64,000 bases of DNA from Meloidogyne chitwoodi (Eukaryota > Nematoda > Chromadorea > Rhabditida > Meloidogynidae). Location: the NCBI GenBank assembly GCA_015183035.1, contig JACZZP010000002.1:2818272-2882271 (forward strand), read 5' to 3'. Position numbers and translations under genes: made by a program. This document shows positions 14,492-51,587 of the stretch, piece by piece (the stretch's first letter is position 1; the number at the start of each line of letters is the position of its first letter). The notes under the pieces are model-generated. The model was not told where the DNA came from and made no database searches. It saw nothing but the letters and a program-made list of their open reading frames with translations.

Positions 14492-16235
14492 ATGAGTCTT
14501 GCTGCTGAAGCATTAATTTTATTATTTAAAAATCTCAATATTTTCACATATTTTTTCTACATTCTAATACTTTTGTTTTTCCCACTAAACACTTTAGCAG
14601 CAAGATATAGGCGTCAGTATTACCAACAGCCTGAAGTTTATTCAACTTTTAATTCAGAACAATTTACACAACAACTGCCTCAACAACAGCCTCCTTCCCC
14701 TACAACCCAGAGGCAACAATTTACAGCTTATAATGAACCTTATGCGAGAATGTTGCTTGCCCTTGCCGCTGGCGCTTATTCACCGACACCTCCAAATGGA
14801 TGTGAAAAAAGGCATAAAATAAGGATTTTATTTAATAATTTTTTTTAGTTTTTAGATGGATGCCAGATGCTCATTTATGGAATACTCCTATTAACCAAAG
14901 CTGTGATGCGTTGGATAACACTTGTTCTACTTATACGGTAACAAATAGAGAGAGAATAGACCATTAGCCACCGGGAGGCATCGAACCTGCTACCTCCCAG
15001 TGGTCGCTAGTGCAAATAGTCGAGTGCTCTACCGACTGAGCTACCGATGTGACTTTTTCACTTCCTCTTTTAATAGATCTTATACGTTAAGCGATTGACT
15101 GCTAGCAACAGCATCTTAAATAGAAATTTTTTCAAATTCTCAGGTTGTTTCTGAACCACGCTGTGAAATTATTATTATCTTCCGAGGAACAAAAACTAAA
15201 GAACAATTGTTTTTGGAAGGTTGGCAAAGTTTTCAACCAGGAACTGATTTTGATGGAATTGGAAAGGTAAATTAAGCAATTTTTATAAAATTTATTTTAA
15301 AAATTTAAGGTAAATAAATACTTCGTTAGGGCATTTAATACACTTTGGCCAAGTGTAAAAGCTTCGTTGGAAGATCCCCTGCATGCTGTTAGTTTTTATA
15401 GCTTTTAATTTCTTATTCATGTCTTTAAAGGGGTATAAAGTAACATTTACTGGACATTCACTAGGTGGTGCACTTGCCTCTTTAGCATCAGTACGAACAG
15501 TTTTGGATAACCTGAGAAGGTGCATTTTGTAAAAAAATCTAAAAATATTTTTTAAATAAAACCGAGGCTACCTATTTTCTAATTTTTATTATTTAAAGGA
15601 GTGATCAAGTTCAATTATATACATTTGGCCAACCACGTGTGGGTAACGTTGATTTTGCATTTCAGCATAACAAACTAGTTCCATTAAGGTATTAAAAAAT
15701 AAAAAATTATAATTTAATTTTCCTCATCTAGTTTTCGAGTTGTACATCGCATGGATATTGTACCTCACATGCCTGCTTGCGACAAAACAGACAATTGGCC
15801 TGGAGTAAGGCCTAAAGATGATAGCAAGCCATGTGATCCTACTGTAAAGGGAAAGGCTTATCATCATGGAACCGAAATTTGGTATCCTTATGGAATGAAG
15901 CCTGGTGACCCTTTTTACGAATGTCTGCAGGATCCAAAGAATGAGGATTTTACTTGTAGTGATTCGCTCTCGTTTGAAGTTGCAAAATACAAAACTTATA
16001 TAAATGATCATAGGCATTATTTTGATCATAAGGTAATTGGCTTTTTGTCGAAAAAATTTCAAAAAATTTTAAGGTACCAAGATTCGGTAAATTAGGATGT
16101 GACCCAAATCTAAAGGAATTGGAAGAAGCCGAAAAAATTGAAACGAATGGTGTAGAGAAAAAAAGTTCGGGTGGATTCTTTGCTAATTTAGTGAATAAAG
16201 TGCAAACATTGGGAAAACTTATAAAAATATTGTGA
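14492..16235 (+). CDS. Secreted class 3 (alpha/beta-hydrolase) lipase
   Basis: A secreted lipase_3-family enzyme predicted to hydrolyse acylglycerol esters. The N-terminus has a long hydrophobic signal segment (FTYFFYILILLFFPLNTLAA), then a Gln/Pro-rich spacer and YARMLLALAAGAYS. The core follows in small exons: RCEIIIIFRGTKTKEQ (oxyanion region), the nucleophile elbow GHSLGGALASLAS, YTFGQPRVGN, the acid residue in HRMDIVPHMP, and the catalytic histidine in DHRHYFDHK. Ser, Asp and His are all present. The C-terminus is a short Lys/Glu-rich tail ending KVQTLGKLIKIL. Cysteines flanking the core suit a secreted protein. An intron at about 14939-15143 holds SINE copy 2. Confidence 0.9.
14965..15117 (-). 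repeat. tRNA-derived SINE, copy 2, intronic and antisense
   Basis: The minus strand reads TAGCTCAGTCGGTAGAGCA (A-box) and GGTTCGATGCC (B-box), preceded by TATAAGATCTATTAAAAGAG and GTTGCTAGC, matching copy 1 at 3782-3950. The hairpin that replaces the T-arm (14968-14978 with 14993-15003) is kept through paired base changes relative to copy 1. It lies antisense in a lipase intron. Confidence 0.75.
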
Positions 16236-48000: not shown

Positions 48001-50369
48001 TTTTGCCATTAGGGTATAAATCAAATATCTTTGATTTTTGTTCTGGTGTTTGTTGATCCAAACGTTTTGAACTTGTCAAACTGGAATTTTTTTTGTTTGC
48101 AGCAACTTCTTTTCCATTTTCTAAAATTTCTTTGAGAGAATCCTGTAAACTCTTAGGAACACCAAGGTCAAAAATTATTGGTTGCTGATTTTCCACCTCC
48201 TTTTTAGGATTTTGTTTTTTATTTTCCTTGTTAACGTTTCCATAAACCTCATAATAAATTTTTAAAAAGACAAAAATAATAAAAAGATTTTTTAAAAACT
48301 TTTTAATAAATTTTAATTCATGTGAATTAGATTTCTCAAAAATTGGGGAGAAATATAGAAAGGCTAATGCATTCACTTTTCACTTACCTTAAAGGTTAAT
48401 TGGTATCTTGTTCACATGACTTTATTTTCTCTCTTTGCGCAGCCTTAAAAGTACTCTTAATCGAAAAAAATTGATTTTATATCCATTAAATATTGCCAAA
48501 GCCTAGGCTAGACAAAATGCGGGAATATCTTTTGAATTTTAAAGTTTTTGTTTTTTCTGAAAGTAAATAATATAAAAAATTATTAAAAAATATTATATTT
48601 AAAATTAACTAATTTTTAATTATTTATCTTATTTCATTAAGGCAAAATCCACCAACTTTGTTTCACCCACTCATTACTTTTTTTCAAATATTCTTGCACC
48701 GTTTTTATGCCATCCTTTGACTCGTCTCAGCTTTTTGGCTATTTATGGGCTTTATATTTTTGGAGCATTCTACGGTTGTTCCCTTTTGCGGCCAAATTTA
48801 ACACCCAGTCGGTTGCTGGTTGATGATTCCCCGTTGACTCATTATATGAAACTAGCTGAACAACGTCTTTGGTCTGAGGGTGTTATTGGCAGAATATACG
48901 TTAATAATGCCCCTGACTTTGAAGCTAATCCAGAAAAGGTAAAATGGAAACTTTAATATAAAAAAACAAATTAAAGTTGGAACGTTTGCTTCAACTGGTT
49001 TCTGAATTGGAATCGACACCCTTTTCAATGGGTCCTAACTCAACCCAACTTTGGATTCGTGAATTTAATAATTATCGCCAATACTTTGCTGACAGCAATC
49101 AGGACTTTTACGAAACACTTAGAGCCTTTCTAAAAATATCTTTTAATAAACAATGGTCTTCTTTTCTCCATTGGATGCCTGGACCGGTTGGTACTAACAT
49201 TTTTAGTTAGCATAGAACAAAAAATTTTTTATTCTTTAGAATGGTCGAGAATATGTTAACAAATTTTACTTTACTACTGCTTTTAAAATACCTGACTGGA
49301 ATGTTAGAACACAACTTTTATTAATTTGGAGAAATATTACTTCAAAATATTCCGATTTTCAAGCAATGGTTTTTGACGAAAATAACTTTTTTAGCGACCA
49401 AATGCTTGAATTAAAGCAAACAACTCTAAGTTCTTTAGGAACAGCAATTTTAGCAATGATTATAGTATTAATTATTTATCAAAAGTTGACCTCAATTTAC
49501 TAAACTTTAGGTCTGTATTCTTTTTATCGCAGATTCAGCAATTGTATTTTGGGTTTCTTTTATGCTTGTTTCAATGGATATTGGGGTATGTGGGTATCTT
49601 TCTCTTTGGGGCAGAGAAAGCTCTTCAGGTAAAATAAAAATAATAATTTTTTATTTAATTTTTTAAAGCTCACAGCGATTTGGATCCTACTACAGTAGTT
49701 AACATACTTATGAGCATTGGTCTTTGTATTGATTTTGCTACGCATGTCGGTTACAGAACTTATAGATCAAGGTATGATTTTGTTTCAAACATAATAATAT
49801 ATCTCATAAATAGGTGTCGCGATCCAGATGAGCGAATTGCTGACTCTTTAGGAGCTATTGGATGGCCGGTTGTTCAAGCAGGGTTTTCAACCATGCTTTG
49901 CATTGTAGTCATGCTTTTAGTGCCATCCAACGTTGTCAGAATGTTTGCTAGGTTATTTATAAATAACAATTTTTTGGAATTATTTTAAATTTTCTCAAAT
50001 ATCTTATTAAGGACAAATATTCTCGTTGTGTGCACTGGTCTATTTCATGGCCTTTTTCTTCTTCCTATCATCATTCGATCGTTCGCCTTTGGAGTAGGTG
50101 ATTCAGTTAAGAAGGATTTAAAGAATTATCTAAAGACAATATCTGAGAATACACAAAATTCTTCTGTTGGGCTTTCAAATATCGCTAAAGTTGCACTAGT
50201 TAATGATTCAAAAAAAGAATTTGTTGGAAAAGAAGGAAGAAGAGATATTACTAATTCTACCAATGGAACAACAGTTAATAATTCTTATAATGGGAAAGAA
50301 GCTAAAATTTTGGCTAAAGTGGTAGAAGGGCAAATTAATCAAGCTTCTGGTACTTTTTTCTTTAATTAA
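42059..50369 (+). CDS. ptr: Patched-related (PTR) RND-type membrane protein
   Basis: A patched-related protein with two sets of membrane helices, a nematode-expanded family needed for moulting, cuticle and lipid or sterol traffic. It begins MPSNDLFQNKINPFGLL, then helix 1 (HPRPFIIIPV/LVTFLLMFGIL) and DDLRLLYSPEHSMSRVE. A first extracellular loop follows, then the sterol-sensing-like domain with AIGVDDTYVML, LEEAGSAITVTSLTSFISF and GTFSATPAISIFCKF. The second half starts AKSTNFVSPTHYFFSNILAP and has SRLLVDDSPLTHYMKLAEQRLW, then SIGLCIDFATHVGYR and LGAIGWPVVQAGFSTML. Both halves have the RND GxxxD-type motif. The halves join in phase 0 across a 4583-nt intron (44059-48641) that houses two opposite-strand genes. 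The C-terminal tail is polar and Asn-rich. Confidence 0.9.
44235..46276 (-). CDS. Secreted Lys/Asn/Glu-rich disordered protein, nested in ptr intron
   Basis: I do not recognise a domain. Exon 1 encodes a signal peptide (MKLIGLTITLLFYNNCYG) and a segment with CVNC. Exon 2 begins EDLYPQIEGINEKPKEK and has HRKTKSDSNINFSRQ. Exon 3 has ERSHSNNWFNGKRNKSL. A large exon (about 45.66-44.42 kb) follows, and a last exon ends TTKLESVNENEVKICT with stop at 44235-44237. All junctions keep frame. A 22-residue tandem duplication starts the large exon: SDTLEQLPNETLSTPNLDN then SDNTLEQFPGEILETPHLD. The rest is charged and polar, probably disordered. It is entirely inside an intron of the opposite-strand ptr gene. 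Candidate effector by secretion, composition and lack of known domains; that role is inference. Confidence 0.7.
46520..46568. promoter_or_regulatory. 21-bp palindromic stem upstream of the nested secreted gene
   Basis: 46520-46540 pairs with 46548-46568 over 21 bp with one G-T wobble and a 7-nt loop. It lies 244 nt upstream of the minus-strand ATG at 46276. The right arm contains AAGTGCA (46555-46561), which is TGCACTT on the gene's strand and matches TGCMCTT, the motif reported upstream of dorsal-gland effector genes in Meloidogyne. Hairpin and motif are seen; function is inference. Confidence 0.5.
47001..48376 (-). CDS. Signal-anchored disordered protein, nested in ptr intron
   Basis: I do not recognise the family. 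The first exon starts MNALAFLYFSPIFEK and has a hydrophobic segment (FLKNLFIIFVFLKIYYEVYG) followed by a polar Lys/Asn/Ser-rich chain, so it is a signal peptide with a long n-region or a signal anchor. Recognisable spots: PIIFDLGVPKSLQDSLKEIL, KIFDLYPNGKTYDLMDSLKL, LNPFRGIKIPVSLEKNRFI, SESSDYSETNFTDTTYTTS. Exon 2 (after ATTTAG) encodes EDSESDKFIELESNNGVETF and exon 3 ends YMVYDIGKDIKKNENKEEMGK (stop 47001-47003). IFDLG and IFDLYPNG with following SL(K/Q)-rich stretches look like two diverged copies of a short motif. Neighbour and orientation match the gene at 44235-46276; both lie in the same ptr intron. Confidence 0.65.
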
Positions 50370-50451: not shown

Positions 50452-51031
50452 TTAACCACAGAATTTTGCATGAGAACAGTACCATTGTCTCTTGACCCGA
50501 TTGTTTTCTAAAAAAATTTTAAACTTTATTTTAATCAATAATTTAGAAAGAATTTTTGGCCAATTTTTACACTATCATGTTCCAAAATTTTTATCAATTT
50601 GTATAATCTGTTAAAATCTTTTTAATCATTTATTCCTCTAATTCTTTTTAACCACAAAATTTTGCATGAGAGCAATACACGCCAGGAAAATCTTGACGGC
50701 GTCTTCTGGCAGCTCTTCCCCAACCACCCCAATAATTATTATATCCACCTGGAATTTTGAAAATATTTTTTATAATTTTTTAAATTTAAGTAGGCGACTC
50801 GTTTAGTTTATATTTTTTATTTAAAATATATTTTTAATTACCATATCCATAATAATTGTTGTAGTTGTAGGGTGAAAATCCACCACCATTGAAATTGTTT
50901 GAATAATAACCATACGGATAGTATTGAGCCACACAAGGCTCTAAAAGCATAAATGTTAAAACAATTAAACTTCCAAAAAGAAGGAGATGGTTGGACTGAT
51001 AAAAACCATTTTGGAAAGTTTGAATTTTCAT
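50452..51031 (-). CDS. Putative cyclic amidated peptide precursor with two alternative last exons
   Basis: Exon 1 (50842-51031) encodes a signal peptide (LLLFGSLIVLTFMLLEPCVAQ) and a Tyr/Gly/Asn-rich spacer ending in phase 1. Two downstream exons both have good acceptors, both accept phase 1 and both end in the same peptide. Exon 2a (50648-50748) gives a Gly/Trp/Tyr stretch, then AARRRR-QDFPGVYCSHAKFCG-stop. Exon 2b (50452-50507) gives ENNRVKR-QWYCSHAKFCG-stop. Each has a polybasic cleavage site, an N-terminal Gln (could form pyroglutamate), two cysteines spaced CX5C, and a final Gly that could donate an amide. Predicted mature forms are QDFPGVYCSHAKFC-amide and QWYCSHAKFC-amide. The YYGYG spacer also recalls nematode antimicrobial/neuropeptide-like precursors. 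I know of no named family with this core. Confidence 0.7.
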
Positions 51032-51587
51032 TAGAAGGATTAAGAAGTTTATTAAGAGTTTTTTTTAACAAATTTTGGAATGAATTTAATTGGATTATTT
51101 GCCTGCTTAAATATCTCCCGATAGATCCGAGTTTAGGCGAGATTTTAAACAAAAGTCATATGGTTAATGAAGGAATTATTAAAATATTCAAACGACCAGT
51201 CGACGCCATTTGTGCCAAGGGCATAGAATTAGATATTAAAAAGGAATTTCTTAGTTATCCGCTAAGAGATTATCCGTTCCTTTAATTTTTTCTAAAAATT
51301 AATCACTCTTAAGTGTTAAATTATTTTTAGTTTAAAAAATCTGTCTTCCGCCGACCTAGTTTAATAAAAAAATTGACCTTCGTGACGACTGTTTGGTGCC
51401 ACTTTCTTTTTTCTTTTTAATTATTAAAAAAGGGTCGTATCTTTTAATATTTTTTACTAAATATTTTATTCTTGACGATATTATTTTTTTTTTAATTTTA
51501 AAAATCATTAAAAAATCTATTAAAATCAAGCAAAAATTCGACAAAAAATTTGTAAAAAATTATTATTTCAAAATTCCCAAGTATTAA

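Follow-up and report, generated by a model that had tools for sequence, protein, structure and literature searches.

The locus described here, found in a 64-kb window (the whole stretch of DNA that was analysed) of the Meloidogyne chitwoodi genome, raises the question of whether a single gene could, by the choice of its last exon, supply two cyclic, amidated peptides that share one ring and differ in what precedes it. Animal peptide hormones are cut from their precursors at polybasic convertase sites, their N-terminal glutamine can become pyroglutamate, their cysteine pairs oxidise, and a terminal glycine is converted to an amide. The gene lies on the minus strand, where one signal-peptide exon can be spliced to one or the other of two terminal exons, denoted 2a and 2b; both joins are in frame and each ends in YCSHAKFCG followed by a stop codon. 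The features are the following.

51031-50842, minus strand: exon 1, 190 nt, ending in phase 1 (after codon position 1), donor G/GTAATT
51031-50927, minus strand: predicted signal peptide, codons 1-35 of exon 1, from hydropathy, the C-x-A/Q motif and the relatives
50841-50749, minus strand: intron 1, 93 nt, GTAATT...ATTCCAG
50748-50648, minus strand: exon 2a, 101 nt, encoding the end of the spacer, RAARRRR, QDFPGV-YCSHAKFC-G and a stop
50647-50508, minus strand: stretch between exons 2a and 2b, the last part of the alternative intron, 140 nt, ending in AAATTTTTTTAG
50507-50452, minus strand: exon 2b, 56 nt, encoding the polybasic site (E)NNRVKR, QW-YCSHAKFC-G and a stop
50634-50629, minus strand: AATAAA that may serve isoform a as its poly(A) signal, 14 nt past the exon 2a stop
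50530-50525, minus strand: second AATAAA in the stretch between exons 2a and 2b
50412-50407, minus strand: AATAAA that may serve isoform b as its poly(A) signal, 40 nt past the exon 2b stop
51217-51223, minus strand: TGCCCTT, one form of the Mel-DOG heptamer TGCMCTT; it starts at -192 relative to the ATG

The arrangement proposed in the earlier note, namely a signal-peptide exon followed by two phase-1 last exons, each with an AG acceptor, a polybasic site, a glutamine and an identical YCSHAKFCG-stop, holds at the level of individual bases. The putative signal peptide reaches a Kyte-Doolittle maximum (over 12 residues) of 2.6, compared with 2.6 and 2.3 in two of the homologous proteins described below (P0001 and P0004, respectively), and in all three the cleavage motif C-x-A/Q stands ahead of QYY. 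The rest of exon 1 encodes most of a Tyr/Gly/Asn-rich spacer that begins QYYPYGYY; residues 36-77 include 10 Gly, 12 Tyr and 8 Asn among 42, with no clear repeat discernible by eye. On the opposite strand, an antisense open frame of 110 amino acids (50953-51285, plus strand) spans exon 1 and the promoter region; it has no Pfam match and probably arose by chance.

A protein search detected three full-length relatives (6 candidates), all from Meloidogyne, namely, M. graminicola Mgra_00008447 (P0001, E 3.2e-42), M. hapla ACQ4LE_004458 (P0002, E 1.8e-32) and M. incognita A0A914L0R9 (P0003, E 1.1e-21). These proteins, which their sources name hypothetical, uncharacterised or, for M. incognita, candidate secreted effector, represent the same gene as isoform a and share with it the spacer, the ARTRRQ site and the YCSHAKFCG end. 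Since the join of exon 1 to exon 2a reads YGGYNNY exactly as in the three annotated relatives, isoform a is very likely a real gene. The predicted start, which preserves the signal peptide, agrees with that of the M. graminicola relative, which begins at the aligned methionine. A profile search yielded 5 proteins among 798 candidates, adding P0004 (E 2.0e-13) and P0005 (E 7.3). P0004, encoded on an 800-base contig, corresponds to the exon 1 part only; its frame runs through GYGKAY and then ends, probably by genomic read-through of a donor at the same place. P0005 was dropped as, by eye, an unrelated Tyr-rich protein. P0004 aside, no relative from outside Meloidogyne appeared among the named proteins in this search, which requires shared exact 5-residue words, and a search that used both terminal reading frames as queries and was restricted to short proteins returned P0003 as the sole match (1 of 1 candidate). 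Genome searches with exon 2a and exon 1 revealed no paralogues and returned the gene itself alone; the exon 2a search is low in sensitivity to short matches, given that exon 2b was not returned. With the exon 2b frame, one weak match on C5 (E 0.02, 50% identity) was obtained; it was rejected since, by eye, it is AT-rich sequence located between exons that belong to a different gene.

Conservation along the protein is uneven. The tyrosine, ring and glycine are identical at 9 of 9 positions in each of P0001, P0002 and P0003, so that the CX5C-G end, which the earlier note expected to persist in related species, is invariant in all three full-length relatives. The remaining segments, in the same order of proteins, show identities of 39/42, 39/40 and 33/39 for the spacer and 5/6, 6/6 and 4/6 for the N-terminal extension QDFPGV, whereas the signal peptide retains 19/34 in P0001, where the N-terminus is complete, and 7/17 and 4/9 in the annotated parts of P0002 and P0003; all these figures are identities over a few, related species and not a rate test. 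At the convertase-type site, exon 2a has ARRRR and exon 2b RVKR, and all three relatives have ARTRR. The proposal that selection acts on the ring only thus does not hold for the entire gene, because the spacer identities come close behind the invariant ring; the ring end is, rather, what the two terminal exons share. This pattern suggests that the ring is not the only part of importance, which would be unexpected for a plain hormone spacer.

The strong conservation of the spacer is what an antimicrobial or structural Tyr/Gly-rich secreted protein would display if the spacer, not the ring, were the active part, and C. elegans nlp-24 to nlp-34, which are Gly-rich, are thought to be antimicrobial (PMC8764417). 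However, this interpretation, which we regard as quite improbable, leaves unexplained both the invariant ring-Gly-stop behind a polybasic site and the duplication of the ring without the spacer. Nor does Pfam lend it support: among 6 proteins, including both isoforms and the relatives, none matched a family over the cut-off, the matches far under it being DMP19 (E 1, for P0001) and ARS2 (E 7.9, for P0003). A search of PDB sequences gave a single meaningless match (E 7.2).

Judged by its sequence, isoform a is a conserved Meloidogyne gene, with its function unannotated, that has the anatomy of a hormone precursor: there is a signal peptide on a conserved start, with a convertase site before, and a Gly-stop after, a conserved short peptide. 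We modestly favour the view that the gene, so far seen in Meloidogyne only, uses alternative last exons and encodes the precursor of a signalling peptide that is cyclic and amidated. Under this scenario, the preproprotein would enter the secretory pathway and a proprotein convertase would cleave behind RVKR or behind RRRR, whose place is taken by RTRR in the relatives, after which the new N-terminal glutamine could cyclise to pyroglutamate, a disulfide would form between the two cysteines of CX5C, and the terminal glycine would be converted to an amide. From these established processing rules we infer pyroglutamate, disulfide and amide in the product, a small cyclic signalling peptide in which the ring CSHAKFC would face the receptor. 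The tandem copy of the last-exon end would provide an alternative, shorter peptide, with QW- in place of QDFPGV- before the same ring, and the ligand made by a given cell would depend on which of the two last exons, each with its own candidate poly(A) signal, is chosen. The predicted products are pQDFPGVYCSHAKFC-amide for isoform a and pQWYCSHAKFC-amide for isoform b, each with one disulfide; the [M+H]+ values computed with pyroglutamate, disulfide and amide are 1581.66 and 1252.50, respectively. The layout of the precursor is suggestive of an endocrine or neuronal role.

The domains expected of the processing enzymes have matches in the genome. For Cu2_monooxygen (PF01082), two adjacent matches were found; the domain is also present in enzymes of the dopamine beta-monooxygenase type, so these matches do not prove the presence of an amidating enzyme. 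For P_proprotein (PF01483), there are six exon-size matches, one of which contains an in-frame stop.

The case for two peptides depends on the second copy of the ring. The ends of exons 2a and 2b are identical at 34 of 37 bases in an ungapped match that includes the nine bases from the stop codon onward, which supports the earlier suggestion that the exon end was duplicated. The three differences, which lie within the nine shared codons, are without exception synonymous third-position transitions; the probability that all would be synonymous by chance is 0.029 if transitions are assumed throughout and 0.008 if transitions and transversions are taken to be equally likely, although the support for exon 2b from substitutions comes from these three changes only, which are few. 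Within the window, in six frames, CX5CG-stop with no further internal cysteine occurs at these two places alone. The genome searched comprises 47,477,280 bases (47.48 Mb) in 30 contigs, with the window on contig 12, and in it the exact ring pattern likewise occurs at two places, exons 2a and 2b. When up to 3 mismatches to this pattern were allowed, one further site emerged, on C23, reading CSNPKFCA-stop; it was rejected and looks like chance, given that alanine replaces the glycine, just TFQ separates it from an upstream stop, and the basic site is absent. The bare CX5CG-stop DNA pattern, by comparison, is near chance level, with 80 genomic sites and 68 for the reversed control. When 30 of these 80 sites were read, the gene's own two lying outside the 30, 5 had an upstream in-frame [KR]R and none of the 30 had KRQ or RRQ upstream. 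One part of the genome is rich in such matches, namely a cluster of near-identical Cys/Gly-rich repeats at C6:214133-214540, with five CX5CG-stop matches in about 400 bases.

The sequence upstream of each ring was compared with 400,000 random 90-nt pieces drawn from the window. Of these, 1,764 contained RX[KR]R followed by a frame that stayed open, and 169 of the 400,000 had a phase-1 pyrimidine-rich acceptor in addition; the stretch upstream of the ring in exon 2b has both, whereas that in exon 2a has the first only, its tract AATTCC falling below the pyrimidine cut-off used. Between the exon 1 donor and the end of exon 2b there are 17 AGs; an all-T tract precedes a single one of them, at 50509-50508, and the phase of this AG is correct. 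The gene as observed is real and better than chance. Exon 2b, with its all-T acceptor tract, RVKR-Q and AATAAA, is a well-formed but unproven candidate for an alternative last exon, and its use we infer from these signals.

A more sceptical reading is that the gene normally ends in exon 2a and that exon 2b is a relic of the duplication, rarely or never spliced in, in which case a single peptide would be made. In agreement with this possibility, the tails of the three annotated relatives that have one are all of the 2a type, with none of the 2b type among the proteins found (0 of 3), and the block matching between the two exons is just 37 bases long. However, the copy in exon 2b is intact in its frame, ring, stop, convertase site and acceptor, and all three of its changes are synonymous, so we consider a relic possible but rather doubtful. 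Alternative last exons are often missed by gene callers. Another variant, which we deem very unlikely, holds that exon 2b is reached not from exon 1 but from a phase-1 GT inside exon 2a, so that some of the spacer is kept and the first ring is skipped. There are indeed five phase-1 GTs within exon 2a beyond the GT at its first base, for example, TGGG/GTGGTT at 50727, but by eye, without scoring, none of them makes a strong donor compared with the G/GTAATT of exon 1.

Where the peptide would act is a separate issue. In the main rival to the hormone reading, the product would be a secreted effector: the pharyngeal glands would make it and deliver it to the plant, so that the ring acts on the host, not on the worm. 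The label 'Candidate secreted effector' attached by its source to the M. incognita relative (the basis of the label was not seen) and the restriction of the named relatives to Meloidogyne both point in this direction, as does the single TGCCCTT at -192, which falls within the zone from -150 to -500 where the Mel-DOG motif TGCMCTT has a broad positional peak (PMC8158474). No second TGCMCTT is present within 1,000 bases upstream, on either strand, but the heptamer is weak evidence because chance alone would give approximately 0.10 in 1,000 bases of a single strand (the chance mean is 12.73 over both strands of the 64 kb). Moreover, among 46 known dorsal-gland effectors, TGCCCTT alone is present in just 3, compared with 20 that have TGCACTT alone and 4 that have both variants, and 20% of all putatively secreted genes carry the motif (PMC8158474). 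A 2026 review of nematode peptide effectors names mimics of CLE, CEP, RALF, IDA and PSY in its abstract, and in its text the terms 'amidat', 'cyclic', 'cysteine' and 'neuropeptide' are absent and 'disulfide' occurs once, in connection with RALF (PMC12825991). On the whole, an effector released into the plant appears unlikely. Glycine-directed amidation, which is a signature of animal hormones, also speaks against it. A combination of the two roles, whereby a lineage-restricted peptide of two lengths, carrying pyroglutamate, disulfide and amide and produced via alternative last exons, is also secreted by the gland, so that one hormone-type molecule of the animal would act as a signal outside the worm, strikes us as quite improbable.

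Among known peptides, the closest in layout is CCAP (PFCNAFTGC-amide; PMC4422128), which, like the predicted products, is small, C-terminally amidated and terminates in a CX5C ring. By contrast, the rings CNAFTGC and CSHAKFC share, in register, the two cysteines alone, and neither CNAFTGC nor a close form of it is present, in full accord with the earlier statement that the layout, not the sequence, is that of CCAP. CCAP signalling has been reported to be lacking in C. elegans (PMC6660194). The nematode allatostatin-C-like peptides (nlp-55, -62, -64, -66, -67, -71, -79 and -88 to -96) are similar in being short, secreted and equipped with a cysteine pair, which in that family forms a disulfide. 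Nine novel members of the family carry RNCFF(S/T)P(V/A)QC or (K/R)NC(F/Y)F (PMC8764417); these motifs, as given for the nine, are absent here, where the peptides read VYCSH and WYCSH.

With regard to gene structure, a parallel, for which we claim no homology, is provided by the calcitonin/CGRP gene, in which the choice of the 3' exon within one precursor gene leads to different hormones. Here too a single precursor gene would yield different peptides by 3' exon choice, but the exons of calcitonin/CGRP encode different hormones, whereas those of the present gene encode the same ring behind different N-terminal extensions.

We found no published description of the gene: 'SHAKFC' and the identifiers of the three relatives are absent from the literature searched, and nothing matching appeared among the titles and abstract openings listed for cyclic nematode neuropeptides. 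The table of M. incognita unamidated peptides, which covers unamidated ones only, includes no such peptide in the portion available (PMC5344539). For M. javanica, 74 neuropeptide genes have been listed (PMC11204336), and the present gene could be among them. Two surveys of neuropeptides that cover plant-parasitic nematodes took C. elegans sequences as their queries (PMC8764417, PMC11204336; the latter also used another method), and one of them warns that divergent genes may be missed (PMC8764417). A precursor seen so far in Meloidogyne only would easily escape searches based on C. elegans. If processed as predicted, the gene would add a cyclic amidated peptide to the complement of root-knot nematodes and would offer a clear-cut example of how duplicating an exon end can place the same ring behind two different N-terminal extensions. 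This is a neat architecture, so far in one genus, and not a new principle; a peptide system confined to parasites would be of interest for selective control.

Several observations concern the surroundings of the gene. The convergent neighbour (49240-50369, plus strand) may be the end of a sterol-sensing or Patched-type membrane protein; one of its exons matches Sterol-sensing (PF12349) with E 0.012, which is under the cut-off, and by eye its acceptors end in TAG too. Ten neighbouring frames were searched against Pfam, two of them short and the other 8 drawn from the 24 that reach 120 amino acids; none gave a match over the cut-off, and Rfam identified one tRNA in the window. At positions 968-1660, the window contains tandem repeats (SSTDVF, SPSDEF and VDEKTS units) that are open in several frames on both strands, and at 15718-16095, on the plus strand, there is an open frame of 125 amino acids with a regular, protein-like composition.
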